Shown here one piece after another: positions 124 through 18,663 of a stretch of DNA of 64,000 bases. A model generated the notes under the pieces. It saw only the letters and a list, made by a program, of their open reading frames with translations. It was not told the origin of the DNA and searched no databases. The stretch covers positions 992,001 to 1,056,000 of the forward strand of contig NZ_CP091851.1 in assembly GCF_022059845.1 (NCBI RefSeq). Direction: 5' to 3'. Numbering within the stretch: the first letter of the stretch is position 1; each line of letters begins with the position of its first letter. The DNA comes from Terrirubrum flagellatum (GTDB taxonomy: Bacteria > Pseudomonadota > Alphaproteobacteria > Rhizobiales > Beijerinckiaceae). Position numbers and translations under genes: made by a program.

Positions 124-1707
124 TCAGGCCGCCGTCGCCCTATGCAGCCGCCAGCGCGCGTAGCCGCTCTTCACGTCGTAACCGACATCGACTCTGGAAT
201 TGCGCGCGATCGTATAGGACAGCGTCGACAGGCCGATCGCGGGAAGATCGCGCTGCACCTGCAATTCGATGCTCTGGCAGATTTTCAGATATTCGTCATA
301 GGTCGTGGCGTTAAGCGCCTGCTTGAGTTGATCGTCGATGCCGGGCGTCACGACGCCATAGTGCGAATAGTTCTGTCCGCCTTTTCCGTCTTTCGTCGCG
401 TTCGCCTCGCTTGAGAGATAGTCGATATAGACGCGGGTTGGAATGGGCGGATAGCTCGACGAATTCATCGCCAGCGTGTTCAGGTCGTTGCGGTTCGCCG
501 CGTGAAACGCTGTGTGATCCATCATGTTAAGCTTCATGCGGAAGCCGGCCGGCCTGATCTGCTCCTGCAGGATCAGCATCGTTGAGGAATAGTCCTCGCG
601 CTGGCTGCAATTAGATTCAAAATCCAGACCGTTGGGGAAGCCCGCCTCCTTCAGCAGATCCTTCGCCTTGTTGATGTCGTGCTCGTAGCGCAGCTCCGGC
701 GGAAGCTGCTGTTTGGTGAAGCCCGCGGGGAAGCCCGGCGGATTGATCGTCGCCACGACGCCGCCCATCGGCGTCAGCGCGGTGGCGAGCGTCGTCTGGT
801 CCATCGCATGCGCGAGCGCGCGCCGCACGCGAATATCGTCGAACGGCTTGCGCGTGAGGTTGATCATCAGCGTGTTGAACGAGCCCGGCACCGTCATGTC
901 GAACTTCAGCGTCTTGTCGCGCTTCAGCATCGAGTCGACCCAGCCGGGCGCGCGCACCGCCTCGATCATGTCGGCGTTGCCGGAGAGAAGCGCGAGCGTG
1001 CGCGCTGTCGTATCAGAAATGTAGAGAATGGAGAGATTGGGCGTCTTCGCCTTCTCGCCCCAATAGGCGTCGAACGCCTTGACGTAGATGCCGGACTTCT
1101 GATCGAAGCGCGCAAGCTCATACGGGCCCGTGCCGACGGGATCCTGCGAGAATCCTTCGCCCTTCTCGATATCGGCCTTTTTGCTGACGATCGACGCGTT
1201 GTTATAAAAAACAGAGCTGCCGAGAAACAGCGGATCGGGCCCATTCAGTCTGATCACGACGCTATGGTCGCCGTCCTTCACGACCTCCTTCACATTGAAG
1301 AAGTTCGCGCGGTTCATGCCTTTGCGCGCGCGATCAAACGAGTGGACGACATCGTCCGACGTCATCTCGCCATAGCCCTTGTGGAACTTCACACCCTTGC
1401 GCAGCGCAAAAGTCCAGGTGCGCGCGCCGTCGCTCGATTTCCAGCTTTCAGCGAGCGTCGGCACAAAATCCTCTTCGCGCACGCCGAACATCCCGTCCTT
1501 GGGCCGCACGAGCTGCTCGAACATCTGTTCGGTGGCCCAATTGTCGGCGCCGAGAATCGTCTTATTGGGATCAGCTTCACGCGGACCAGCGGCTGCGAGC
1601 GCGATGCTGATCGTGTCGCGGTTGGCTGCGCGCGCGATGTTGACAGTGGAGGGGAGAGCTGCGCCTGCGGCCGCGGCGCCGAGAAATTTCCGCCTGTTCA
1701 TCGCCAT
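124..1707 (-). CDS. ABC transporter substrate-binding protein, family 5 (peptide/nickel/opine type)
   Basis: Periplasmic solute-binding protein of the SBP_bac_5 family, 527 aa, the usual length. Residues 1-27 form a twin-arginine signal (RRKFLG, an alanine-rich stretch, then ARA), so export folded by Tat is likely. The body has typical family 5 features: AESW and TWTFALRKGVKFHKG near residues 85-110, then SDDVV and GTGPYELARFD further on. The start ATG has GGAGGG 8 nt upstream. It lies between an acid-sugar-type enolase-superfamily gene and a DppB permease, so the ligand could be an organic or sugar acid derivative rather than a peptide. The ligand cannot be read from the sequence. Confidence 0.9.
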   Translation of the reverse strand: MAMNRRKFLGAAAAGAALPSTVNIARAANRDTISIALAAAGPREADPNKTILGADNWATEQMFEQLVRPKDGMFGVREEDFVPTLAESWKSSDGARTWTFALRKGVKFHKGYGEMTSDDVVHSFDRARKGMNRANFFNVKEVVKDGDHSVVIRLNGPDPLFLGSSVFYNNASIVSKKADIEKGEGFSQDPVGTGPYELARFDQKSGIYVKAFDAYWGEKAKTPNLSILYISDTTARTLALLSGNADMIEAVRAPGWVDSMLKRDKTLKFDMTVPGSFNTLMINLTRKPFDDIRVRRALAHAMDQTTLATALTPMGGVVATINPPGFPAGFTKQQLPPELRYEHDINKAKDLLKEAGFPNGLDFESNCSQREDYSSTMLILQEQIRPAGFRMKLNMMDHTAFHAANRNDLNTLAMNSSSYPPIPTRVYIDYLSSEANATKDGKGGQNYSHYGVVTPGIDDQLKQALNATTYDEYLKICQSIELQVQRDLPAIGLSTLSYTIARNSRVDVGYDVKSGYARWRLHRATAA

Positions 1708-1735: not shown

Positions 1736-2881
1736 TTATTCGGCTGAGGCTCGGCGTTTCGCCAACTCCTCGTCGATGACGTCGAGGCCTAGTCCCGGTC
1801 CCGATGGAATCTTGAATTTTCCACCCTCGGGCTTCGGCGGATTGCGGAAAGCCGCATGCATCCGCGTCGATGGATCGGCGAATTCAGCTGGCTTGGTGAG
1901 ATGCATGATGGCCGCGAGCACATGCAGATTCGCAGCATGCCCGATCGTCGGCTGCGTCTGATGCGGCACCAGTTCGACGCCATGGGCGTAGCAGATGGCG
2001 GCGCATTGCATCAGGCCGGTGACGCCGCCCATCTTCACGATGTCAGGCTGCACCATGCGCACGCCCGCATTGATCATGTCGACCAGCGCCTGGACCGTGT
2101 AGGTCTGCTCGGCTGCGGAGACGGTGATGTCGAGGCGCTGCGCCACCTCGCCCATGCCGCGCACGTCGTAATGCTGCACCGGCTCTTCGAACCAGATGAA
2201 GCCGAGTTCCTCAAGCGCGCGACCGACGCGCATGGCGCCGCCGACCGAGTAGTTGTTGTTGGCGTCGAAGGCGAGCGGATAGGACTCGCCGACAAGCTTC
2301 CGCACCGCTCTCGCCTTGGCGATGTCGCCGGGAATATCATGGTCGAGCTGAGAGCGATCGCCGTCCCAGCGGATCTTGATCGCGGCCGGCGTCTCCGTCT
2401 TCCAGCGCGCCTCCACAGTTTTCACGACTTCATCGACGGTGCGGTTCGCATTGCCGCCGATTGACGCATAGAACGGAACCTCCGTGCGCCAGCCGCCGCC
2501 GAGCAATTTGTAGATCGGAAGCCCTGCAATTTTTCCCTTGATGTCCCAGAGAGCAATGTCGATCGCCGCGAGCGCGCCGGTCAGGGCGCCTTCCGGCCCG
2601 AGCTTGATGCATTTGTGGAACATGCGATCATAGAGAACCGCATGGTCATATGCGTCGGCGCCGATGAGTCCGGGCGCGAGATCGCGTCTGATAATTCCGA
2701 GCGAGTGTTCGCCGCCCTGCATCGGCGACGCCTCGCCATAACCGACAACGCCATCTTCCGTCGTGATGCGGACGAACGCGCTGCGGCGTCCCGGCGGATC
2801 GCCTGGCTGCCAGGCGACCTGAAAGGCTTCGACGGATTTGATCCTGGCTACGGCAGTCACGGGCGCTCTCTCACTCAACAA
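1736..2881 (-). CDS. Mandelate racemase/muconate lactonizing-family enzyme (enolase superfamily)
   Basis: Cytosolic enzyme of about 381 aa that would abstract the alpha-proton of a carboxylate, as racemase, cycloisomerase or acid-sugar dehydratase. N-terminal capping domain to about residue 130, then the TIM barrel. Visible metal ligands are D206 (FDANNNYS), E232 (WFEEP) and E258 (SAAEQ). Acid/base candidates are K169-I-R171, D280 (QPDIVKMGG) and H307 (VPHQTQP), so it is probably active. The mandelate racemase/dehydratase type is favoured by the His on one face. The longest frame starts at TTG 2881; a GTG at 2860 (MTAVARIKSVEAFQV) fits the family N-terminus better, and neither has a strong ribosome site. 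An inverted-repeat operator and a promoter lie about 80-105 nt upstream. Confidence 0.88.
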   Translation of the reverse strand: MLSERAPVTAVARIKSVEAFQVAWQPGDPPGRRSAFVRITTEDGVVGYGEASPMQGGEHSLGIIRRDLAPGLIGADAYDHAVLYDRMFHKCIKLGPEGALTGALAAIDIALWDIKGKIAGLPIYKLLGGGWRTEVPFYASIGGNANRTVDEVVKTVEARWKTETPAAIKIRWDGDRSQLDHDIPGDIAKARAVRKLVGESYPLAFDANNNYSVGGAMRVGRALEELGFIWFEEPVQHYDVRGMGEVAQRLDITVSAAEQTYTVQALVDMINAGVRMVQPDIVKMGGVTGLMQCAAICYAHGVELVPHQTQPTIGHAANLHVLAAIMHLTKPAEFADPSTRMHAAFRNPPKPEGGKFKIPSGPGLGLDVIDEELAKRRASAE

Positions 2882-2972
2882 TCGAACTGGCGAGCGGAGA
2901 CGACTGGCGCTCCGGCGTTTCCTCGATCCGCGTTGTCGCGGAGTGTTCTGCTTGTCCCGAGCTTAGGCAGGT

Positions 2973-2988
2973 TTGCATCCGCATGCAA
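2973..2988. promoter_or_regulatory. LacI-type operator and promoter for the enolase/transport operon
   Basis: TTGCATCCGCATGCAA: perfect 6-bp arms around a 4-nt centre. The same arms and nearly the same centre occur at 6179-6198 beside the LacI gene. On the minus strand the right arm doubles as a -35 (TTGCAT, 2983-2988), followed after exactly 17 nt by a -10-like TAAGCT (2960-2965), so a bound repressor would cover the -35. It drives the unit that begins with the enolase-superfamily gene. Regulator assignment is inference from the shared site. Confidence 0.7.
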
Positions 2989-2991
2989 CGC

Positions 2992-3792
2992 TCAGGCGAG
3001 TGCTTGGGAACGGCGATAGCGCGCAGCGACGAGGCCATCGGCGGTGAGGATTTCATCGGTGACGAAATAGCGGCGGTTGTTTCGCTCATAGAGTTCCACC
3101 ACGACGCCTGATGTCGCGATCCGCTGTTCCGCGTGGACAGTCCTGAAATGCTGCGTCTCGATCGAGGCGAAGATGGGTGGAGTTGGCAGCGCAAAACTCT
3201 GGTTCACGTCGCCCATAGCGAGCCGCATCGGGCAGCCGGGATGGGCGAGCGAGCCGTTGGCATAGGCGTCATGCGTTTCCTGAAAGGCGGCGAGCGAGAT
3301 GGCCAGATCGGCCGAGGTGAGGATTGCGTTGCGACTGCCAATACAGGCGCCGACCTTCAAGCCCGTCTCGGCATCAATTTTGGGATCGGGGAGGGGCGGC
3401 GGCGCGCCTTCGATCACAGGTGGCTGTGCTGCGTCGCGCGGCTTCGCGATCCAGCCGACAGCAAGCTGTTCTCCAGCCGCGTTGGTCACCTGAGCGTCGG
3501 CGCGCAAGCCTGCGTCTGATGCGATCGCAACGCCCGCGGAGATCGTGAGGCGATCGCCGTCATAGGCCGGGCGGCGGAAGCGCATGCCCATAGCGCCGCG
3601 CGTCAGCCATTCCTCGCCCCATGCGTCGACGGCGAGGCGACTGACATGGCCATAGAGAAAGGCGCCCGGCACGAGCGCCGCGCGAAAGCCGAACTTGCGC
3701 GCAGTGTCGTCGTCATGCGTGGAGCCGACATAGCGCGGATCGTGATCGAGGCGGATGTCGATCTCGAATGATGCGGGAAATCCGGCGGGCAT
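2992..3792 (-). CDS. MaoC-like double hot-dog hydratase/dehydratase
   Basis: A 266-aa protein with two hot-dog repeats. The N-terminal half (about 10-120) carries STHDDDTARKFGFRAALVPGAFLYGHV, the hydratase-type turn and hot-dog helix, then FRRPAYDGDRLTI. The C-terminal half (about 155-266) is more diverged (SFALPTPPIFASIETQHFRT). Families of this type hydrate or dehydrate enoyl-CoA thioesters, for example itaconyl- or mesaconyl-CoA hydratases; the exact substrate is not readable. Its ATG directly abuts the stop of the upstream CoA-transferase (TAGATG), so it is translationally coupled. A CoA-transferase pair followed by a hydratase suggests activation and then hydration of an unsaturated acid. 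Confidence 0.78.
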   Translation of the reverse strand: MPAGFPASFEIDIRLDHDPRYVGSTHDDDTARKFGFRAALVPGAFLYGHVSRLAVDAWGEEWLTRGAMGMRFRRPAYDGDRLTISAGVAIASDAGLRADAQVTNAAGEQLAVGWIAKPRDAAQPPVIEGAPPPLPDPKIDAETGLKVGACIGSRNAILTSADLAISLAAFQETHDAYANGSLAHPGCPMRLAMGDVNQSFALPTPPIFASIETQHFRTVHAEQRIATSGVVVELYERNNRRYFVTDEILTADGLVAARYRRSQALA

Positions 3793-5055
3793 CTATGCGC
3801 CCGGCTTTGGCGCATCAGCGATCACGCCGGATGCGATCATTGCTGTGATTTCGTCGTCGCTGCGGCCAAGAATATCGCGCAGGATCGCGACATTGTCGGC
3901 GCCGAAAGCGGGGGCTGCGGCTCTTGCTCCTCCCGGCGTTTCGCTCAGGCGAACGGGAAGGCCGGGATAGGGATGGCGGCCGAGATCTGGCCGCTCAAGC
4001 TCATCGAAAAATCCGCGCGCCGCGAGATGCCGGCTTGCCGCCACATCCTTCGGCGTCTGCACCGGCGCGGCGGGAACGCCGGCGTCCTGCAGCGCGTCAG
4101 CGATCGCGTGCTTGTCGCGCGCGCGCGTCCATTCGCGAACAAGCTCGGAAATCTCGCGCTGATGTTTGAGGCGCGCACCGTGAGTTACAAATCGGGGATC
4201 ATGTGCGGCTTCAGGAGCATCGATGACGACGCAAAGCCGTCGCCACTGATCGTCATCGAAGACGCCGATCGCGACCCATTGATCGACGCCCTGCGCGGGA
4301 AAAGCGTCATGCGGGGCAGCGTCCGGGCGGTGATTGCCGCCGCGCGGAATATCGATTCCAGTTTCGCAGGAGAGCAGCAGATCAGCGCCGATGAATTGCA
4401 TCGCCGCCTCGACCTGGGGAATTTCGATGTGCTGGCCTTCGCCAGTGCGCTGGCGGTGCATCAGCGCGGTCATGATCGCCGCCGCCGCATTGAATCCGCC
4501 GATCGGATCGAGATAGGATGGTCCCGTCGTCTCCGGCGGGCCGTCGGGATAGCCGATCAGGCTTGCCATGCCGGCGGCCATTTCCATGGTCGGACCCAGC
4601 GCCGCATAGCCCGACATCGGCCCGTCGAGGCCAAACGCCGGAATTTCCGCGACGATGATGTCGGGTTTGATGCGCGCGAGACTCTCATAGTCCACGCCGA
4701 GCTTTTCGAGTGTGCCCGGCCGGAAATTGCAAGTCACGACGTCAGTGACCGCGAGCAGATCGCGCAGCGCGGCGCGCCCCTCTGTCGTCTTGAGATCAAG
4801 CACGAGCGAACGCTTGTTGACGTTCTGCGAGTTGAACAGGAACGTCCTGTCATAGTGACGTGCGCCCGGATCGCCATTGGCGAAATTCATCGGTTGCGGC
4901 GTCTCCTTGTTGATGCGCCAGGAGTTGGTGCGCGTCGGCGCCTCGACATGGATGACTTCAGCGCCTAGCCAGGCCAGCACGCGCCCGGCCATCGGCCCCG
5001 CCCAGGCCGTGCAAAGCTCCACCACACGAATTCCAGCGAGAGGGAGCGGGTTCAT
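3793..5055 (-). CDS. CaiB/BaiF (family III) CoA-transferase, catalytic subunit
   Basis: A 420-aa class III CoA-transferase that would move CoA between carboxylic acids. Family marks: LAGIRVVEL at the start, the AGPMAGRVLAWLGAEVIHVE block (19-38), NKRSLVLDLK (80-89), VTCNFRPG, and the catalytic-Asp motif SYLDPIGG with D183. It overlaps the upstream second CoA-transferase by 4 nt (ATGA) and abuts the downstream hydratase. The pair resembles two-subunit enzymes such as succinyl-CoA:benzylsuccinate CoA-transferase, where only one subunit keeps the Asp; here this is the intact one. Its substrate is unknown. Confidence 0.9.
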   Translation of the reverse strand: MNPLPLAGIRVVELCTAWAGPMAGRVLAWLGAEVIHVEAPTRTNSWRINKETPQPMNFANGDPGARHYDRTFLFNSQNVNKRSLVLDLKTTEGRAALRDLLAVTDVVTCNFRPGTLEKLGVDYESLARIKPDIIVAEIPAFGLDGPMSGYAALGPTMEMAAGMASLIGYPDGPPETTGPSYLDPIGGFNAAAAIMTALMHRQRTGEGQHIEIPQVEAAMQFIGADLLLSCETGIDIPRGGNHRPDAAPHDAFPAQGVDQWVAIGVFDDDQWRRLCVVIDAPEAAHDPRFVTHGARLKHQREISELVREWTRARDKHAIADALQDAGVPAAPVQTPKDVAASRHLAARGFFDELERPDLGRHPYPGLPVRLSETPGGARAAAPAFGADNVAILRDILGRSDDEITAMIASGVIADAPKPGA

Positions 5056-6161
5056 TCAGCGGCGCTCCGCATCATGCGCGTATCGTCGAGCGCGGGCGGC
5101 GGCGCAATTTCGCCGCGCGGCGTGCGGCTGAAGCGCCAGGCCGGACCGAGAATCCGCTCATCGCCGGCGCGCCGCCAATAGTCGCGAGCGATAAGATGCG
5201 GATGATCGCGCAATTCGGTGAGCCCAGGCGCCTTCGCGGCGATCACCTGCGCCTGCTGCAGCGCGTCGACAACTTCATCCGCCAAGCGATCGGCGACGAC
5301 CGACTGGATGATTTCGAAGAGCGCGCTCCAGTTCGCCTTGCGCGTCAGCGGATCGGCGAAACGCGGATCGCTGATGAGATGGGCGAGGCCGAGAGTTTCG
5401 CAGAGCGCGCGCCAGCGGAAATTATAGATCCAGATGCACACCCAACCGTCGCGGCAAAGCGCCTGGCCCGCCGTGATGCTGAGCTCGCTGCGCAGCCGGT
5501 CGTGACCGCTATAGAGAAACTGCATCACATAGGGAAACGCCATCGCGGCAGCGGTTTCCGCGCGATCGATGAGAACGTCCTGCCCGCGTCCAATCGTTGG
5601 CCTGACATAGAGCGCGGCAAGGGCGCCGATATAGGCTGCGAGTCCCGCCGCGAATGCCGAGCGTTCGCCATAGCCATAGAGCGGCTCGCGGCCATGCGCG
5701 CCGTTGTTGTGCATCATGCCGGACAGCGCCTGAATGACGATCTCCGGTCCGCGCCAATGACCCAGCGAAGTCTCCGGCGCGAAATCATCGATGCGGACGA
5801 CGACGGTCTGCGCGCCAATCGCCGCAAACTCTTTGCGCGCCGCGCCCGGCGGCAAAATGATGATGTCTGCGCGCGACATCAGCTCGTCGCGAAGGCGCTG
5901 CGCGCCTGTCTTCGCGAGGTCAATCGCAATACTGCGCTTGCCGGCGTTGAGATGCCGGAACATCAGCGATTCGCCCGGAGTGTCGACAGATAAGGGCGCG
6001 GCGCGGCGGATCGGCGAGCCCTCCGGCGGCTCGATCAGCGTGACGGTCGCGCCATGATCGGCCAGCAAGCGCCCGCAATATTGCCCGGCGATCGAGTCCG
6101 ACATATCGACCACATGCAGATGTCCAAGCGCAGCGGGCGATTGATGTCCGGAAGAAGCCAT
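5052..6161 (-). CDS. CaiB/BaiF-family CoA-transferase, probable non-catalytic partner subunit
   Basis: A 369-aa relative of the neighbouring CoA-transferase: HLHVVDMSDSIAGQYCGRLLADHGA near the start, then NAGKRSIAIDL (72-82). It is shorter than usual, and the region that should hold the catalytic Asp reads REPLYGYGERSAFAAG. By hand alignment E166 falls at the Asp position and the surrounding Y-x-D-x-x-G pattern is lost. The likely role is a structural or binding subunit of a heteromeric transferase with its 4-nt-overlapping partner. It is the first gene of its unit. The predicted -10 (TAGCTT on the minus strand) ends 6 nt before the ATG, so the mRNA may be leaderless. Confidence 0.82.
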   Translation of the reverse strand: MASSGHQSPAALGHLHVVDMSDSIAGQYCGRLLADHGATVTLIEPPEGSPIRRAAPLSVDTPGESLMFRHLNAGKRSIAIDLAKTGAQRLRDELMSRADIIILPPGAARKEFAAIGAQTVVVRIDDFAPETSLGHWRGPEIVIQALSGMMHNNGAHGREPLYGYGERSAFAAGLAAYIGALAALYVRPTIGRGQDVLIDRAETAAAMAFPYVMQFLYSGHDRLRSELSITAGQALCRDGWVCIWIYNFRWRALCETLGLAHLISDPRFADPLTRKANWSALFEIIQSVVADRLADEVVDALQQAQVIAAKAPGLTELRDHPHLIARDYWRRAGDERILGPAWRFSRTPRGEIAPPPALDDTRMMRSAAE

Positions 6162-6176
6162 GAGGCGAAGCTAGCG

Positions 6177-6200
6177 ATTCTTGCATCCGTATGCAAGAAT
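6177..6200. promoter_or_regulatory. LacI-type operator between CoA-transferase and lacI genes
   Basis: Perfect 10-bp inverted repeat: ATTCTTGCAT at 6177-6186, a 4-nt centre CCGT, and ATGCAAGAAT at 6191-6200. The core matches the site at 2973-2988. On the minus strand its TTGCAT (6191-6196) works as a -35, with TAGCTT (6168-6173) as the -10 after 17 nt, the same geometry as the other site. It sits in the 84-nt divergent gap beside a LacI gene, so autoregulation and control of both directions are likely. Confidence 0.75.
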
Positions 6201-6245
6201 GATGACGAGTTGGCCTAACACGCTGACTGATTGGGAGATTCAGGG

Positions 6246-7298
6246 TTGGACGCGAAACCAGCGGAGCGGGCGGGAGGCGGGGTTACGGCGCGCGAACTCG
6301 CGCGCATGATCGGGGTCAGCCAGTCCGCGGTGTCCCGGGCTTTCACCCCCGGGGCGAGCATTTCCGCCGACATGCGCCAGCGCATCCTCGCGTCTGCGGC
6401 GAAGCTCGGCTATCGCCCGAACGCGATCGCGAGCAGCCTGTCGAAACGCTCGAGCAAGCTGATCGGTGTGGTGCTGCCCGATCTGCGCAATCCCTTCTAT
6501 CCCGCTTTCCTCGAAAAACTTCTGCTGGCGCTGGAGCAAGCGGGCCATCAGGGGCTGGTGATCAATGGTCCGCCCGAAGGCGACATGGAGGACCAGCTCG
6601 CTGGCCTCACGCAGTACAATATCGAGACCGTGATCATCGCGTCTGCGCGCGTGTCGACGGCGACGGCGTTGAACTGGTCTCGAAATGGGCGATCGGCGCT
6701 GCTGTTCAATCGGCCGGTGGCGAATGTGCCAGTAGCAAGCGTCTGTTGCGACAATGCGGCCGGCGCGCGCGCTATCGCCGATCACTTTAACGCCTGCGGC
6801 TATCGCAAGGTGGCTTACGTCGCTGGCCCGCAGGACATGCCTGCGAACACAATCCGCCAGAACGCCTTCATTACGCGGGTCGCGGAGCTCGGCATGACGT
6901 TGAGCGCCTGCATCGTCGGCGGCTCCTACGGCTATGAGATCGGGCACCGCCACGGCGTCGAAGCCGCGCGTTCGGGCGCGGACGCGATCTTCTTCGCGAA
7001 CGACATCACCGCGCTTGGCGGCCTCGACGCCATTCGTGACATCGCTGGATTGCGCGTTCCCGAAGATATCGGCGTCGCTGGCTTCGATGACATCACCATG
7101 GCGAGTTGGCCCCGTCACCAGCTCACAACTCTTCGCCAGCCGCTCGACGAGATGATTGCGATCGCGGTCGAGATGCTCGTCAATCGAGAAGGCGCGCAGC
7201 CCTTGCCGCCAACGATGCGTCTTGTCGCCGGTGAATTGGTTGCGCGCAACACCACGAGGACATCCGCTGATGGCCGCTCCCGTTCCACAGCGACGTAA
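6246..7298 (+). CDS. LacI-family transcriptional regulator
   Basis: A 350-aa repressor. The HTH lies at about residues 13-34 (VTARELARMIGVSQSAVSRAF) with the hinge helix RPNAIASSLSKR, then a periplasmic-binding-like effector domain (LIGVVLPDLRNPFYPAF, DAIFFANDITALGGLDA, IGVAGFDDITMASW). The start chosen is TTG 6246, which has GGGAG 8 nt upstream; an in-frame TTG at 6231 lacks one. The effector may be an acid sugar, alditol or CoA-pathway substrate. It probably binds the inverted repeats at 6177-6200 and 2973-2988. Its 3' end overlaps the start of the alditol oxidase gene by 29 nt, linking the two. Confidence 0.92.
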   Translation: MDAKPAERAGGGVTARELARMIGVSQSAVSRAFTPGASISADMRQRILASAAKLGYRPNAIASSLSKRSSKLIGVVLPDLRNPFYPAFLEKLLLALEQAGHQGLVINGPPEGDMEDQLAGLTQYNIETVIIASARVSTATALNWSRNGRSALLFNRPVANVPVASVCCDNAAGARAIADHFNACGYRKVAYVAGPQDMPANTIRQNAFITRVAELGMTLSACIVGGSYGYEIGHRHGVEAARSGADAIFFANDITALGGLDAIRDIAGLRVPEDIGVAGFDDITMASWPRHQLTTLRQPLDEMIAIAVEMLVNREGAQPLPPTMRLVAGELVARNTTRTSADGRSRSTAT

Positions 7299-8538
7299 CT
7301 GGGCCGGCAATGTCAGCTACGGCTGGACGAGCTGGCATGAGCCCGAGACGCTCAACGAGGCGCGTCGGATCGTCGCCCGGGAATCTCGCATCAGGGCGCT
7401 TGGCGCAAGGCATTCGTTCGGCGACATCGCGAACACGGATGGCGCGCTTCTATCGACCGCCAGGCTCGATCGCGTGGTCAATCTTGATCGCGGGGCGAAG
7501 ACAGTCACTGTCGAAGGCGGCGCGCGTTACGGAGAACTCGCTGCTTTCCTGCATGGAGAAGGCTTCGCGCTGCCCAACCTCGCTTCCTTGCCGCATATTT
7601 CGGTCGCCGGCGCTATCGCGACCGCGACCCATGGCTCCGGCGATCAAAATCGCTGTCTCGCAGCCGCCGTTTCGGCGCTCGACTTGATCGGACCAGATGG
7701 AGACATCATCTCTCTGGAGCGAGGAGACGCTGATTTTTCAGGCGCCGTCATCGGGCTTGGCTGCACAGGGATCGTCGCCCGCCTGCAGCTCGATCTCGTG
7801 CCGACCTTCGAGATCGCGCAGAATGTCTACGAAGACGCGCCGCTGGAGTACGTCATCGAGAATTTCGACAGCATGATGTCAGCCGGCTACAGCGTCAGCC
7901 TTTTCACGGACTGGACAAGCGAGCGCGTCAATCAGATCTGGGTGAAGGCTTTGGTCGGCGATGCTCGACGCGGCGCGCCGGGAGACATGCTTGGCGAAGC
8001 GAAGCCCGCCACGCGCGACCTTCATCCGATTTCTTCAATTTCGGCTGCGCATTGCACGCCACAATGCGGCGTCGCCGGCCCCTGGCATGAAAGGCTGCCT
8101 CATTTCAGGTTCGGCTTCGCGCCGAGCAGCGGCGACGAGTTGCAAAGCGAATATCTCGTGCCGCGAATTCATGCAGCGGAAGCGCTGAGAGCGGTGAACG
8201 CCATGCGCGGCGACATCGCGCCTTTGCTTCAGATCAGCGAGATTCGCAGCGTCGCGGCCGACGATCTCTGGATGAGTCCCTTCTATAAACAGCCTTGCAT
8301 CGGGCTGCATTTCACCTGGAAGCCGGACTGGTCGCGCGTGTCGTCGCTGTTGCCTGATATCGAGGCGCAACTGGCTCCGTTCGGCGTCCGGCCTCATTGG
8401 GGAAAACTTGCGTCGATAGATCCGTCCGATGTCCGGGCGCTCTTTCCGCGATTTGACGATTTCGCGCGGCTTGCAGGCGCTCTCGACCCCGGCGGCAAAT
8501 TTCGCAATGATTTCACTCGCCGGCTACTGGCGGATTAG
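7270..8538 (+). CDS. Alditol (xylitol/sorbitol-type) oxidase, FAD-linked
   Basis: A 422-aa VAO-family flavoprotein close in size to Streptomyces AldO (418 aa). The FAD-domain marks are IRALGARHSFGD (H48 is the candidate for covalent histidyl-FAD), VEGGARYGEL, LPHISVAGAIATATHGSG (109-124) and GLGCTGIVARL. The C-terminal half is of the D-arabinono-1,4-lactone oxidase type (FRFGFAPSSGDELQSEY, LHFTWKPDW, RPHWGK near 397). The expected reaction is a polyol plus O2 giving an aldose plus H2O2, in the cytoplasm. The ATG at 7270 has GAGGA 9 nt upstream and lies inside the lacI 3' end, so both share an mRNA. An aldonolactone oxidase is the alternative. Confidence 0.85.
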   Translation: MAAPVPQRRNWAGNVSYGWTSWHEPETLNEARRIVARESRIRALGARHSFGDIANTDGALLSTARLDRVVNLDRGAKTVTVEGGARYGELAAFLHGEGFALPNLASLPHISVAGAIATATHGSGDQNRCLAAAVSALDLIGPDGDIISLERGDADFSGAVIGLGCTGIVARLQLDLVPTFEIAQNVYEDAPLEYVIENFDSMMSAGYSVSLFTDWTSERVNQIWVKALVGDARRGAPGDMLGEAKPATRDLHPISSISAAHCTPQCGVAGPWHERLPHFRFGFAPSSGDELQSEYLVPRIHAAEALRAVNAMRGDIAPLLQISEIRSVAADDLWMSPFYKQPCIGLHFTWKPDWSRVSSLLPDIEAQLAPFGVRPHWGKLASIDPSDVRALFPRFDDFARLAGALDPGGKFRNDFTRRLLAD

Positions 8539-12906: not shown

Positions 12907-13827
12907 TCAAGTTCGACTGGCGCTGGGCTGGGTCGCGCCATCGTTCAAGCTTGCCGCGCGGTCGTCGGCCTGCGCCTTCGGGTCGGAGCCGCTCGCGCGC
13001 CTCGTCCTCAGCCGGGGATCAATGATTTCGTTGAGCGCATCGCCCACGAGGTTCGCCGCCAGCACGAACAGCGAGAGCGCAATTGCCGGGCCGATCACGA
13101 GATAAGGCGCGCGAGTGAGAAAGCCCTTGGCCTCATTGAGCATCTGCCCCCATTCCGGTGTCGGCGGCTGCACGCCCAAACCGAGATAGCTCAGGGACGA
13201 GGCGCCGATCACGAAGCCAGGCAATGCGATCGTCGCCTTCACGATGACGGGGGCGGCGATATTGTGCAGGACATGCTTGCGCAGGATGCGCGGCCAGCTC
13301 GCGCCAGAAGCGATGGCCGCCTCGATATAGCGCTCCTGTCGGACAGACAGCGCGGCGCTGCGCGCAATGCGAATGAAATTCGGCAGTTGCGACAGGCCGA
13401 GCGCGATGATCACGCCTTTTTCGGACGGGCCGACCACGACGACAATCACGATCGCGATCATGATCGTGGGAAAGATCAGCATCATGTCGGTTGCGCGCAT
13501 CACGATCGCATCGAGCCATCCGCCGCGATAGCCGACCGCCATTCCCACAGGCACGCCGATGCAGAGCGAGAATAGCAGCGCCGCAGTCGTGATCTGCAGC
13601 GTCACCTGCGTCGCAAGGATGACCCGCGAGAACGAGTCTCGGCCAAACTGGTCGGTCCCGAACCAATGCTCGGCGGAGGGCGGCAGCAATCCCTGCGCCA
13701 GATTCGTCTCGAATGGATCAAGCGGCGCGAGCTCGCGCGCAAAAATGGCGACGATATAGAAGGCGCAGAAAATCAGCGCGAATGGCGCCGCGATGCGATC
13801 GCGCGCAAAAGCCCACAGCGAACTCAC
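12907..13827 (-). CDS. Opp/Dpp-type ABC permease, DppC-like
   Basis: A 306-aa permease with the OppC N-terminal segment (FAPLDPFETNLAQGLLPPSAEHWFGTDQFGRDSFSRVI, about 34-70), five to six hydrophobic helices and the EAA loop YIEAAIASGASWPRILRKHVLHN. GTG start at 13827, 21 nt after the DppB-like gene. The C-terminal tail is polar (ASGSDPKAQADDRAASLND). No DppD or DppF ATPase follows, which is unusual for this transporter class. Confidence 0.9.
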   Translation of the reverse strand: MSSLWAFARDRIAAPFALIFCAFYIVAIFARELAPLDPFETNLAQGLLPPSAEHWFGTDQFGRDSFSRVILATQVTLQITTAALLFSLCIGVPVGMAVGYRGGWLDAIVMRATDMMLIFPTIMIAIVIVVVVGPSEKGVIIALGLSQLPNFIRIARSAALSVRQERYIEAAIASGASWPRILRKHVLHNIAAPVIVKATIALPGFVIGASSLSYLGLGVQPPTPEWGQMLNEAKGFLTRAPYLVIGPAIALSLFVLAANLVGDALNEIIDPRLRTRRASGSDPKAQADDRAASLNDGATQPSASRT

Positions 13828-13848
13828 GAGAGGGTCTCGTGAATCAGG

Positions 13849-14775
13849 TCAAGGCTGGGCATCGGCCAGTCTCGGATCGGCCCAGCGATAGAGCAGATCA
13901 ACAATCAGGTTGATGATCACGAACATCATCGCGAAGACGAAGATGCAGCCTTGCGTCAAGGGAAGATCGCGGGTCAGGATTGAATCCACCATCAGCCGGC
14001 CAAGGCCTGGCCAGTTGAAGATCGACTCAGTGACGGCGGCGCCGCCAAGCATGCCTCCGAGCCCCAATCCAAAGAAAGTGATGATCGGCAAGAGCGCGTT
14101 CGGAAGCGCGTGTCGGATGACAATCAGGAATTCCGGCACGCCTTTCGCCCGCGCCGTCACGATGAACTCGCGCCCAAGCGACTCGATCATGCAGGTTCTG
14201 ACCATCCTGGTGAAGCCGGCGGCCTGCGCGAATCCGAGAGTCAGCGCCGGCATCAAATAATGCCGCCATGTGGTCATGCCGCCGATCGGCAGCCAGCGGA
14301 GATAAACGCCGAAGAGATAGATCGCGACCACGCCTGTGACGAAAATCGGCGTGCAGATTCCGAGCAGCGAGACGATCGAGATGCTCTTGTCCAGCGGACT
14401 GTTCCAACGCACGGCTGAAATGCAGCCGAAGATGAGGCTCATCATCACCGCAAACAGCATCGCCCAACCAGCCAGCGCAATCGTATTCAGCAGCCGCGGC
14501 CCAACCACCGACAACACCGGCTGACGCGAGAAGTTCGACATCCCGAAATCGCCGATCAGAACCTTCTGCATGTAGGCGACATATTGCGCGCCAACCGGTT
14601 GATCCAAGCCGTAAGCAGAGCGGATGCTGGCGACGAGTTCCTCTGGCGCGCTGTCGCCTGCGATCAACCGCGCGGTGTCGCCCGGGATGAGGTGAAACAG
14701 CGCGAACAGGAACGTCAGGAGCAGCAGGCCGGCCGCGACCATGAAGACCAGCCGGCTGAAAATCATCTTCAGCAT
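13849..14775 (-). CDS. Opp/Dpp-type ABC permease, DppB-like
   Basis: A 308-aa inner-membrane permease. TM1 is followed by LFHLIPGDTARLIAGDSAPEE, the DppB mark; next come YGLDQPVGAQYVAYMQKVLIGDFGMS and the EAA loop REFIVTARAKGVPEFLIVIRHALPNALLPIITFFGL. It follows the binding-protein gene by 42 nt and pairs with the DppC-like permease downstream. Confidence 0.92.
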   Translation of the reverse strand: MLKMIFSRLVFMVAAGLLLLTFLFALFHLIPGDTARLIAGDSAPEELVASIRSAYGLDQPVGAQYVAYMQKVLIGDFGMSNFSRQPVLSVVGPRLLNTIALAGWAMLFAVMMSLIFGCISAVRWNSPLDKSISIVSLLGICTPIFVTGVVAIYLFGVYLRWLPIGGMTTWRHYLMPALTLGFAQAAGFTRMVRTCMIESLGREFIVTARAKGVPEFLIVIRHALPNALLPIITFFGLGLGGMLGGAAVTESIFNWPGLGRLMVDSILTRDLPLTQGCIFVFAMMFVIINLIVDLLYRWADPRLADAQP

Positions 14776-14817
14776 GGCTGGTCGCGATTGTTGCGATCCG
14801 TCACTGGCGAAGCGACC

Positions 14818-16455
14818 TCAGCGGCTGATCCCCTGCTTTTTCCTTTCGGCCTGATCGATCCAGGCGAAGCTGCCGTCATAGACATTGGCGGGATAATAGA
14901 CGCCGCCATGCACATAGGTGCGCGTTGCGTCCGTCAGGTTGACCGTCGGGAGATAGATCACCGGCGCGAGTTTCAGCAACGCGGCCATCCATTGTTTCAC
15001 GATCGCGGCGCGCTTGACGGGATCGCTTTCGACATGCGCTTCCTCCGCGAGACGATCGGTCTCCGGGTTCGAGAAGAACATGCGGTTGGCGCCGGCCGGC
15101 TTCCACGCCTTGGTGTGCGTCATATACATCATCGGCTCGTCGGGATCGGCAGTCGGCACCGTCCAGGAGAGAATGGCGAGATCATATTTCGCATCCTTCG
15201 GCCCGACAGAGAGAGCCGCGCTGAAAGTCGCGCTCTCAAGCACGGTCAACTCAACCTTGACGCCGATTTTCTCCAGGAAGGTCTTCACGAGTTGGGCGAT
15301 CTCGTAATCGCCGACGCCGGCCTTGCGGCCGTAAAGTTTAAGCGAAAGCTGCTTGCCCTGGGCGTCTTTCAGGCCGTCGCCCTTGTCTTCGTAGCCTGCC
15401 TCCTTCAGCAGCGCTTTCGCTTTCGCGATATCGAAGGGGAAGATCGTCGCCTGCCCCGGCTCGCGCATATCGGCGAAGCCGAACACGCCGGGCGAGAGCG
15501 TCGGCGCCTGCGAGAGCGTCGCGCCGATGCCGGCGAAGACGGACTGCACGATGCCCGCCTTGTCGACAGCGTAGTTGAGCGCCTGCCTGACCTTGGGATC
15601 GTCGAGCGGCTTCACCGTATTGTTGATGACGACATAGTGCTGCTGCAAGCTGGGCATGGTGCGCAGCGCGATGTTCTTGTCCTTCGCCACGCGCGGAATG
15701 TCGAAATTCGGCACGCCGGCGATGCGGTCGACCTCGCCGCTCTCAAGCATGGCGAGACGCGTCGTGATGTCAGGGACAAACAGGATGCGGATGCTGTCGA
15801 GATAGGGTTTGCCCTTCTGCCAGTATTTGTCGTTCTTCTTGAAGAGCGCGTACTCGCCTTTCGCATATTCGGTCTGGATGAACGGGCCGGTGCCGATGAT
15901 ATTGCTGCCGAGACCCTCTTCACCCTTCGCCTTGTAGGCGGCGGGGCTGAAGATGCACATGGTGCGATAGGCAAGATTGTTGATCAAAGCAGCGGACGGC
16001 GCCGCAAGCCGGAACGAGGCCTGATATTCGCTGTCCGCGACGACTTTCTGCAAGCCTTCCAGCAAGCTCACATACAGAAATTTCTTCGCGATCGCTTCGT
16101 CGAACACGAAAGCGACGGCTTCCGCATTGAACGGAGTGCCGTCATGAAACGTGACGCCTTGCCGAAGCTTGAAGGTGACTGTCTTCTTGTCCTCCGACGT
16201 CGTCCAGCTCTCGGCGAGCACGGGACGAATTTCGCTCTGCGGGGTGAGCTCGACCAGCGTCTCGCAGGAGTTGAGATAGACATCCATGCCGCCGGCGTCG
16301 GTGTTGCGGCCGGGAAACATGGTCTTGTCGAGCTGGCCGGTGAGCACGAGTTCGCCGCCATATTGCGGCTTCGCATCCTGCGAGAAAGCCGGGCCGATCA
16401 ATGCTGCGCCAATGATGGTCGTGATCGCGCCTAGGCGCGTCCAGTGCGTTGTCAT
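14818..16455 (-). CDS. ABC transporter substrate-binding protein, family 5
   Basis: A 545-aa periplasmic binding protein. Sec signal to about residue 26 (ALIGPAFSQD), then QYGGELVLTGQLDKTMFPG, LAESWTTSEDKKTVTFKLRQGVTFHDGTPFNAEAVAFVFD and GTGPFIQTEYAKGEYALFKK, all family 5 hallmarks. GGAGGAG sits 6 nt before the ATG. It is first of the SBP-DppB-DppC set and follows a D-2-hydroxyacid dehydrogenase by 55 nt. The ligand is unknown; opines, peptides or aminated acids would suit the neighbouring aminotransferase and dehydrogenase. Confidence 0.92.
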   Translation of the reverse strand: MTTHWTRLGAITTIIGAALIGPAFSQDAKPQYGGELVLTGQLDKTMFPGRNTDAGGMDVYLNSCETLVELTPQSEIRPVLAESWTTSEDKKTVTFKLRQGVTFHDGTPFNAEAVAFVFDEAIAKKFLYVSLLEGLQKVVADSEYQASFRLAAPSAALINNLAYRTMCIFSPAAYKAKGEEGLGSNIIGTGPFIQTEYAKGEYALFKKNDKYWQKGKPYLDSIRILFVPDITTRLAMLESGEVDRIAGVPNFDIPRVAKDKNIALRTMPSLQQHYVVINNTVKPLDDPKVRQALNYAVDKAGIVQSVFAGIGATLSQAPTLSPGVFGFADMREPGQATIFPFDIAKAKALLKEAGYEDKGDGLKDAQGKQLSLKLYGRKAGVGDYEIAQLVKTFLEKIGVKVELTVLESATFSAALSVGPKDAKYDLAILSWTVPTADPDEPMMYMTHTKAWKPAGANRMFFSNPETDRLAEEAHVESDPVKRAAIVKQWMAALLKLAPVIYLPTVNLTDATRTYVHGGVYYPANVYDGSFAWIDQAERKKQGISR

Positions 16456-16510
16456 GCCTGCTCTCCTCCGCTCCCGCCGTCGCGCGTTCGTCAGCCTCGC
16501 GTCGGCGCCC

Positions 16511-17569
16511 TCAATACATCCGCGACTTGTCGAGAATGTTGATCATCCGTTCCGGCCGCCCGCCGAGATAATGACCCATATTCTCGATGAAGATATCAAC
16601 GATCTTCCGATTCTCGCTCGGCGCCGTGCTGGCCGAGTGAGGCGAGATCAGCACATTGGGCGAAGACCACAAGGGCGAGCCCGGCGGCAGCGGTTCGATC
16701 TCTGCGACGTCAAGACCGGCAAGCGCAATATGTCCGCTGTCCAGCGCTGCGATCATCGCCTGCTCGTCGACAACCTGTCCGCGTGCGATATTGATGAACA
16801 CGACGCCAGGCTTCATCGCCGCGAACGCGGCGCGATCGATCATGTGCTCCGTCTTCGGCGTGTGCGGCGTGCAGAGAACGACATAGTCCGCGCGCGGAAG
16901 CGCAGCGCGCAGTTGATCCGGGCCGACGATTTCCGTCGTCGAGAGTTCGGCGCTTCGCTCCGGCGAGGGCCGGTTCACGACCGCGATCACCGACATCCCG
17001 AAAGCGCGCGCGATCGCGCCGACCTTGGCGCCTACCTTCCCGGCTCCGATGATTGCGACAGTCTTTCCCGTGAGCTCGCCGCAGCAATATCGCTCCCAGC
17101 GATGGGCGGCCTGCTCTCGTTGCAGCCGGGATAGGTCCTTGGCGTGGCCCAGCATCACGAGGAAGGCGAACTCCGCCAACGCATCAGCATGCACGCCGCG
17201 CGCCGTCGTCACAATGACGTCGCTTTCCGTGAGGCCCAACGAATGGACCTGCTGGCCGACGCCCGAACTTGTCGTCTGCACCCAGCGAACCTTCGGCGCG
17301 AGCGCGAGGCCGCGCTCGGCGGCGTCGCCTGTCGGAAAATCCCAAAGGATCGTGGCGCGCGCGAGCGCCTCTCGCCAGCGCCGATTCTGCGCCGGCGTGC
17401 GCGCGAAGTCGGCGCGGCCCTTGTGATCGCCGACATAGCGGGTCATCGGCAGGAGATCAGGCTCGAACACGATTTCGAGAGTCGACGGCGCGGCGTTTCG
17501 AATCTGCTCGACATGTTCGCTCTCGAGCGGAGAGGTGATGAAAAAGACGTGCTGAGCTGAAGAGGTCAC
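16511..17569 (-). CDS. D-2-hydroxyacid dehydrogenase (NAD-dependent)
   Basis: A 352-aa oxidoreductase of the D-isomer-specific group that interconverts 2-keto and D-2-hydroxy acids. Residues 100-130 hold SSGVG and ARGVHADALAEFAFLVML. The nucleotide fold is IIGAGKVGAKVG (173-184, GxGxxG). Catalytic residues are R263 (INIARGQVVDE), E292 (AEIEPLP) and H311 (ISPHSAS), all present. GTG 17569 is taken as the start because the protein then begins just before the first beta strand (QHVFFITSP). The longer frame into the LysR end has no family match. It heads the leftward transport/aminotransferase operon. Confidence 0.88.
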   Translation of the reverse strand: MTSSAQHVFFITSPLESEHVEQIRNAAPSTLEIVFEPDLLPMTRYVGDHKGRADFARTPAQNRRWREALARATILWDFPTGDAAERGLALAPKVRWVQTTSSGVGQQVHSLGLTESDVIVTTARGVHADALAEFAFLVMLGHAKDLSRLQREQAAHRWERYCCGELTGKTVAIIGAGKVGAKVGAIARAFGMSVIAVVNRPSPERSAELSTTEIVGPDQLRAALPRADYVVLCTPHTPKTEHMIDRAAFAAMKPGVVFINIARGQVVDEQAMIAALDSGHIALAGLDVAEIEPLPPGSPLWSSPNVLISPHSASTAPSENRKIVDIFIENMGHYLGGRPERMINILDKSRMY

Positions 17570-17694
17570 TGAAACATCATGGCGTCGCGCGGCCGCCAAG
17601 TCTTTGGCGGAAAAAAGAAACCACGCCTGAAAGCTGTGATAAAACGGTAACATGGAACTTCGGCGTGGCGCAAGCGACAGCTTGCGACCGCCGG

Positions 17695-18663
17695 TCAAGC
17701 GCGCCTGTTTCGGACGCGAGCCTCAGGCGTAAGGCGCGATCGCTTTTGCTGAGCGCCTTCGACGTGGCGGAGCTCCCGATTCCGGTCGCTGATGACCTGA
17801 ATGAGCGCGCGAAGCCGCGCTGGCATGTGCCGGCGCTGCGCGAAATAGAGGCTGACGCCAGGATAGGGCGGCGTCCACTCTTCAAGCACCGCGAGCAGCC
17901 GTCCCGCGGCGATGTGCGGCGCGGCGGAGAACTCACTGACATAGGCGAGGCCTGCGCCGCCGAGCGCCGCGTTCAACAGCAATTCGCTGTCATCGAGCGT
18001 CAAAGTCCCCGGCGCGTCGATCAGCAGACTCTCGCCATGCCGCTCGAACTCCCAGCGATAGAGCCGTCCGCTCGCCATGCGGTAACGCACGCAGGAATGC
18101 GCAAGCAAATCGCCGGGAACGATCGGTCGCGTCCGCCCTTCAAAATAAGCCGGACATCCCACGACAAGCGATCGCAGCGTCGGGAAAATGGGCGCGGCGA
18201 CCATGTCGGCCGGAACGGCTTCGGTGAGACGCACGCCGGCGTCGAAACCTTGAGCGACAATATCGATCAGCGCGTTGTCAGTGACGATGTCGATCTCGAC
18301 TGTCGGATGGCGCCGGCCATATTCCAGGATGATCGGCTCCATCAGCATGCGCGCTGCGCCTGGCGACATGTTGAGTCTCAGCGTTCCCGTGAGCTTGCCT
18401 GATTGCTCTCCCGCATTCGTCACGGCGGCTTCAATCGTCGCCAGCGCGGGCGCGACTTCCGATACGAACCGTTCGCCCGCCTTAGAGAGCGCGACGCTGC
18501 GCGTGGTGCGATTGAACAGCCGGACGGCGAGCCGTTCCTCCAGCGCCGAGATCGCCTGGCTCACCGAGGACGGGGACGCGCCAAGCTCGCGTGCAGCGGC
18601 CCGGAACCCGCCATGACGCGCCACGGCGGCGACGGCCTCCAATTCGCTCAGACTTGCCTTCAT
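17695..18663 (-). CDS. LysR-family transcriptional regulator
   Basis: A 322-aa regulator. The N-terminal winged HTH (LSELEAVAAVARHGGFRAAARELGASPSSVSQAISALEERLAVRLFNRTTRSVALSKAGERF, 5-66) is classical. The effector domain is of the CrgA/DmlR type (TGTLRLNMSPGAARMLM, DIVTDNALIDIVAQGFDAGVRL, FPTLRSLVVGCPAYF). It is divergent from the aldehyde dehydrogenase with a 92-nt gap, the usual LysR arrangement, so that gene is the likely target. The dehydrogenase downstream could also be read from its promoter. Confidence 0.92.
   Translation of the reverse strand: MKASLSELEAVAAVARHGGFRAAARELGASPSSVSQAISALEERLAVRLFNRTTRSVALSKAGERFVSEVAPALATIEAAVTNAGEQSGKLTGTLRLNMSPGAARMLMEPIILEYGRRHPTVEIDIVTDNALIDIVAQGFDAGVRLTEAVPADMVAAPIFPTLRSLVVGCPAYFEGRTRPIVPGDLLAHSCVRYRMASGRLYRWEFERHGESLLIDAPGTLTLDDSELLLNAALGGAGLAYVSEFSAAPHIAAGRLLAVLEEWTPPYPGVSLYFAQRRHMPARLRALIQVISDRNRELRHVEGAQQKRSRLTPEARVRNRRA

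Follow-up and report, generated by a model that had tools for sequence, protein, structure and literature searches.

Which genes are controlled by the LacI-family regulator gene that adjoins a set of coenzyme A (CoA) enzyme and importer genes in Terrirubrum flagellatum, and what might these genes do together? The question is raised by a stretch of 64,000 nucleotides (nt) of contig NZ_CP091851.1 (positions 992,001 to 1,056,000; here called the window), in which an inverted repeat, TTGCAT-N4-ATGCAA, had been noticed in front of two groups of genes. One group encodes a CoA-transferase pair and a double hot-dog enzyme, the other an enolase-superfamily enzyme and an Opp-type importer. According to the initial annotation the two units flank lacI; in fact, both are located left of lacI and are read leftward. 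We propose, with a probability of about 85%, that the local LacI protein would act as a repressor that controls both units through the palindrome TTGCATNCGNATGCAA at two operators. The regulator gene and the elements around the two sites are the following:

6246..7298, plus strand: gene for the LacI-family regulator, with a TTG start at 6246 after GGGAG; the longest open reading frame begins at 6231
6177..6200, no strand: putative operator between the divergent CoA-transferase and lacI genes, ATTCTTGCAT-CCGT-ATGCAAGAAT; kept in the orthologous gap
6191..6196, minus strand: -35-like TTGCAT of the CoA-transferase unit, seen in the sequence; geometry conserved
6168..6173, minus strand: -10-like TAGCTT of the CoA-transferase unit, exactly 17 nt past TTGCAT
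2973..2988, no strand: putative operator of the enolase/Opp unit, TTGCATCCGCATGCAA; kept in the hot-dog/enolase gap of N. galegae, Rhizobium LC145 and Paracoccus aerius
2983..2988, minus strand: -35-like TTGCAT of the enolase unit, seen in the sequence; geometry conserved
2960..2965, minus strand: -10-like TAAGCT of the enolase unit, exactly 17 nt past TTGCAT

Both copies of the repeat are present exactly as had been described, the second one with longer arms (core TTGCATCCGTATGCAA at 6181-6196, arms of 10 at 6177-6200), and so are the two -10-like hexamers at the claimed distance. In the genome of 6,384,545 bases, TTGCATNCGNATGCAA occurs at these two places only, and a control with the reversed pattern gave 0 matches. 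Allowing one mismatch in TTGCAT-N4-ATGCAA yielded one extra genomic site, C3:217190, outside the cluster. A scan of the window with up to two mismatches gave 4 matches versus 2.32 expected, no excess over chance, and therefore the evidence consists of the two exact sites and their conservation.

The form of the repeat was compared with that of known operators. The canonical LacI-family operator is an even palindrome of 16-22 base pairs (bp) with CG in its centre (PMC4052901), and TTGCATNCGNATGCAA has 16 bp and a CG centre at both sites. In addition, the hinge residues Ala51/Leu54 have been linked to the central CG of the operator, and one operator position has been tied to Arg AA-20 (PMC2978694). 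The hinge Ala51/Leu54 fits the CG centre of the motif, and in the motif the position associated with Arg AA-20 is a G. The protein itself contains PF00356 at residues 21-64 (29.0 bits, cut-off 27) as well as PF13377, and a PDB search showed that it matches CcpA, PurR and LacI over the full length, as expected for a member of the LacI family.

Next, conservation was considered. A search of the window's own family yielded only distant LacI orthologues, and the phylogenetic footprint was therefore drawn from plasmids and other orders. The orthologous clusters stem from rhizobial and Bosea plasmids, Rhizobium LC145, Falsiroseomonas, Silicimonas and Paracoccus. Footprinting showed that other genera have kept the operator in the corresponding gaps. 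Both gaps contain the 16-bp operator in N. galegae (two strains) and Rhizobium LC145, and Paracoccus aerius has one exact copy and one copy with 1 mismatch across the two. On plasmids of four further rhizobia, R. johnstonii, R. leguminosarum, Sinorhizobium B11 and Rhizobium WYJ-E13, only lacI-enolase-Opp is present, and the operator occupies the gap between lacI and the enolase gene. When the gaps are aligned, hardly any columns are conserved apart from the operator and the TA of the -10, while the remaining gap sequence has diverged. Record- or genome-wide scans found no exact sites outside the cluster in the operator-bearing relatives; the same scans detected two exact sites elsewhere, at unrelated places in genomes G780 and G083, which belong to a clade with a 17-bp palindrome described below. 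Orthologous enolase clusters that lack this LacI have no operator (L019, L020 and L030-L039). The operator is thus both kept in orthologous gaps and tied to the presence of the regulator.

The promoter geometry is conserved as well. TANNNT is found 16 or 17 nt past TTGCAT in 8 of 10 independent promoters, in comparison to a mean of 0.07 and a maximum of 1 at other offsets; in 20,000 shuffles the count never rose to eight. This conserved spacing supports the reading of the leftward TTGCAT as a -35.

The genes of the two units, and one gene next to lacI, are:

5052..6161, minus strand: family III CoA-transferase subunit A, 369 amino acids; PF02515, Glu at the catalytic-Asp position
3793..5055, minus strand: family III CoA-transferase subunit B, 420 amino acids; PF02515, Glu at the catalytic-Asp position
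2992..3792, minus strand: predicted double hot-dog enzyme with a MaoC / mesaconyl-CoA-hydratase-like fold, 266 amino acids (from the predicted structure)
1736..2881, minus strand: enolase-superfamily enzyme of the mandelate-racemase type, probable GTG start at 2860
124..1707, minus strand: Opp-type solute-binding protein, identified at family level
7270..8538, plus strand: AldO/xylitol-oxidase-like enzyme with flavin adenine dinucleotide, starting 29 nt before the end of lacI (7298)

In the proposed mechanism the LacI-family protein would bind the 16-bp palindrome at both operators. The leftward TTGCAT would act as the -35, so that the palindrome would span it and the larger part of the spacer, a position that is common for steric repression, and the bound repressor would exclude RNA polymerase from both promoters. 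The mode is taken to be repression, and not activation. The first unit, read leftward from 6161, would supply a two-subunit family III CoA-transferase and a MaoC-type double hot-dog enzyme. The second, read leftward from about 2881 past the window start, would supply the enolase-superfamily enzyme together with a complete Opp importer; the genes for its two permeases and two ATPases lie left of the window (L025 8296-12102). The -10 of the CoA-transferase unit ends 6 nt ahead of the ATG, and there is no Shine-Dalgarno motif in between (6161-6173), and therefore its mRNA may be leaderless. The operator at 6177-6200 also faces lacI, so that autoregulation is probable, and the likely inducer would be the imported compound or its product.

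This is an ordinary LacI arrangement. Like the local LacI regulons that PMC4052901 derived from comparative genomics, it combines an even palindrome of 16 bp with a CG centre close upstream of the start, a divergent regulator gene with probable autoregulation, and a catabolic operon with an ATP-binding cassette importer. Most characterised LacI-family members sense sugars, whereas the targets here are CoA-thioester enzymes and an Opp importer of an uncharacterised breakdown pathway, and the main text of PMC4052901 does not mention enolase, mandelate racemase, CoA-transferase or TTGCAT.

Several observations weigh against the proposed regulation. Bosea and Falsiroseomonas lack the N4 operator in the hot-dog/enolase gap, and Silicimonas retains the genes, but has the operator only as a site with 2 mismatches. 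The enolase-gap promoters of N. galegae and of the Sinorhizobium type have AATGCT or GATGCT instead of TANNNT. Moreover, agreement with the E. coli hexamers is limited to 3 of 6 positions, for TTGCAT as well as for TAAGCT/TAGCTT.

Among the alternatives, the one that survives best accepts the operators and adds the alditol oxidase to the same pathway: an alditol would be oxidised to an aldonate, followed by enolase-type dehydration and then CoA chemistry. The enzyme shows full-length homology to AldO (PDB 2vfr, E=8.8e-126; 8ot8, E=6.9e-137). Given the overlap of 29 nt (7270 versus 7298), co-transcription of the oxidase gene with lacI is probable in T. flagellatum; the gene would then be under the same operator, and an aldonate would suit a mandelate-racemase-type dehydratase. 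However, the association with the lacI cluster is confined to this genome; no homologue was found around the cluster of any examined relative, which rules out the oxidase as a conserved cluster member. In addition, the enolase-superfamily enzyme scores below the cut-off of every NCBIfam sugar-acid dehydratase model, including that for L-talarate/galactarate dehydratase (173.3 bits, cut-off 500), and, to our knowledge, Opp importers are not typical for alditol import. Taken together, a shared pathway seems unlikely. Given the absence of the oxidase from the relatives, a single route from alditols to CoA thioesters is hypothetical, and the oxidase is best treated as a local addition. Of the small LacI regulon initially suggested, the two leftward units are retained (operator conserved, absent without LacI, geometry kept), while the oxidase drops out.

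It is considerably less probable that the palindrome is read by another regulator, for example of the GntR or TetR type, and that the adjacent LacI does something else. A palindrome by itself does not name its protein. Nevertheless, the motif has the 16-bp, CG-centred form of the LacI family, it tracks this LacI and is absent from LacI-less orthologous enolase clusters, one of which is located beside a GntR gene, and no other regulator is common to the clusters. A chance repeat without function, with which the count of degenerate matches in the window would agree, can practically be dismissed in view of the uniqueness in the genome, the empty control, and the retention across genera in matching gaps. 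Control of both units by the local LacI protein therefore remains the favoured explanation.

Some related loci differ in the number or type of their sites. In the lacI/CoA-transferase gap of Rhizobium LC145, two operators lie 24 bp apart, one of them with a single mismatch (L026 5619 and 5643), which suggests paired dimers. An imperfect second site, TTGCATNNGCATTCAT, recurs in these intergenic regions (L016 8599, L024 8591 and the CoA-transferase promoter of L125). On plasmid pAA02 of Aminobacter aminovorans (L023 8673), the gene for a related LacI with the altered recognition helix STSMISR adjoins another enolase gene with a variant palindrome, TTGCAACCGCTTGCAA. The Agrobacterium plasmid pTiCFBP4996 (L020 9004-10161) carries a 64% identical enolase next to a GntR regulator and two dehydrogenases, with neither LacI nor operator; the enzyme subfamily thus also occurs in another pathway context.

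What the controlled genes encode was analyzed at the level of families and folds, and the assignments of the initial annotation proved to be right at that level. PF02515 (CoA_transf_3) was found in both subunits of the CoA-transferase pair, with 367.8 and 196.4 bits. At the position of the catalytic Asp (Asp169 of formyl-CoA transferase), both subunits have an invariant Glu instead. Glu is also found there in chain B of 9fn0 and in 10uh, and thus it does not imply inactivity. A single reading frame encodes both subunits A and B in Bosea, N. galegae and Rhizobium LC145 (L015, L017 and L026), and this fusion in three relatives speaks for their working as one enzyme. The benzylsuccinate CoA-transferase (PDB 9fn0) likewise consists of two different family III subunits, and its chain B is the best solved match of subunit B; both have Glu in place of the catalytic Asp. 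In contrast to this pairing, subunit A, also with Glu, is matched about equally by several family III enzymes. Further differences from the benzylsuccinate enzyme are the lack of toluene-pathway neighbours at the locus and the fused subunits of the relatives.

The double hot-dog protein has no match in Pfam or NCBIfam. An AlphaFold2 model built from nine sequences had a predicted local distance difference test score (pLDDT) of 91.2, and its top Foldseek matches were 4e3e, a MaoC-domain dehydratase, and 8hgn, the mesaconyl-CoA hydratase MeaC; the model has the double hot-dog fold, and the earlier guess of a hot-dog hydratase is thus correct at the level of the fold, the hydratase activity being putative. 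Mesaconyl-CoA hydratases share with it both the fold and a family III CoA-transferase partner (PMC5592240), whereas the identity to 4e3e and 8hgn is 15-16% and the template modelling (TM) score only about 0.65. In the alignment, read by eye, H26 and D28 are invariant and a Tyr occupies the -5 position, at which Asp is usual. The Asp/His motif would thus have retained its His (H26), with Tyr in place of the Asp. A search for homologues in phages found none.

The enolase-superfamily enzyme contains PF13378 and PF02746 (the MR_MLE N and C domains) and belongs to the mandelate-racemase subgroup. D206, E232, E258, D280 and H307 are invariant in 8 orthologues; we take these to cover the three acidic metal ligands and the His-Asp dyad. 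The enzyme is clearly of one subfamily with the solved structure 3n4e/4dwd (E=5e-158 over 365 residues), for which a literature search found no published function. A possible pathway would start with the import of a hydroxy- or sugar-type acid. The enolase-type enzyme would then dehydrate or epimerise it, and CoA transfer and hydration or dehydration of the acyl-CoA would follow, perhaps in this order.

Genes beside the clusters of the relatives include MFS/TetR (major facilitator superfamily and TetR), histidinol-dehydrogenase-like, zinc alcohol dehydrogenase and D-2-hydroxyacid dehydrogenase genes, which are too narrowly shared for the substrate to be named from them. The window also contains a second Opp-type importer, followed by a D-2-hydroxyacid dehydrogenase and a LysR gene (12907-17698, about 6 kb from the cassette), which are not orthologous to the cluster genes of the relatives; specifically, the dehydrogenase (16511-17698) was rejected as the counterpart of the gene near lacI in Paracoccus and Silicimonas at 33-35% identity. 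In the own family, about 400 genomes were covered, and a hot-dog homologue of more than 36% identity is present in just two besides this one; close gene sets were found on plasmids and in other orders. The cassette is thus patchy and has probably been moved horizontally. No paper on this gene combination was found in the literature searched.

One clade of the LacI proteins is associated with a different operator geometry. In Bosea NBC_00550, Falsiroseomonas and G083 (one mismatch in the last), a 17-bp palindrome, TTGCATCA-N-TGATGCAA, with five bases between the half-sites and no central CG, is located just upstream of lacI. It occurs exactly once each in NBC_00550 and Falsiroseomonas and is absent from the other genomes tested. 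In the LacI tree, the corresponding proteins form one clade (100/100) within the group (fork support 92/92). The recognition helix GVSQSAVSRAF is identical in the N4 and 17-bp proteins, while the hinge reads YSPxP in the 17-bp clade, with one residue missing in NBC_00550, versus Y-PNAIAS-L elsewhere. The hinge change fits the known link between Ala51/Leu54 and the central CG (PMC2978694). Odd-length operators occur in 4% of LacI regulators, and members of an orthologous group usually share one spacing (PMC4052901). The variant is supported by three sequences only, and genomes of the clade also carry a degenerate N4-like site, TTGMAW-N4-WTTCAK, before the CoA-transferase gene, where it overlaps a 17-nt-spaced promoter, and either site may be the one that matters for the operon. 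That the operator geometry changed once, with the hinge alone resetting the spacing, and that the cassette also encodes a hitherto undescribed route of catabolism based on a two-subunit CoA-transferase of the Glu type that is often fused, is a tentative joint proposal, to which we give somewhat less than even odds. If true, this clade would offer a natural example of a spacing change brought about by the hinge alone.

In summary, a gene set of unknown purpose becomes a defined regulon with a predicted operator and an inducer to seek. The regulon offers a route to the function of the 3n4e/4dwd enolase subfamily, and the spacing variant is a natural comparison for how the hinges of LacI-family proteins set operator geometry.

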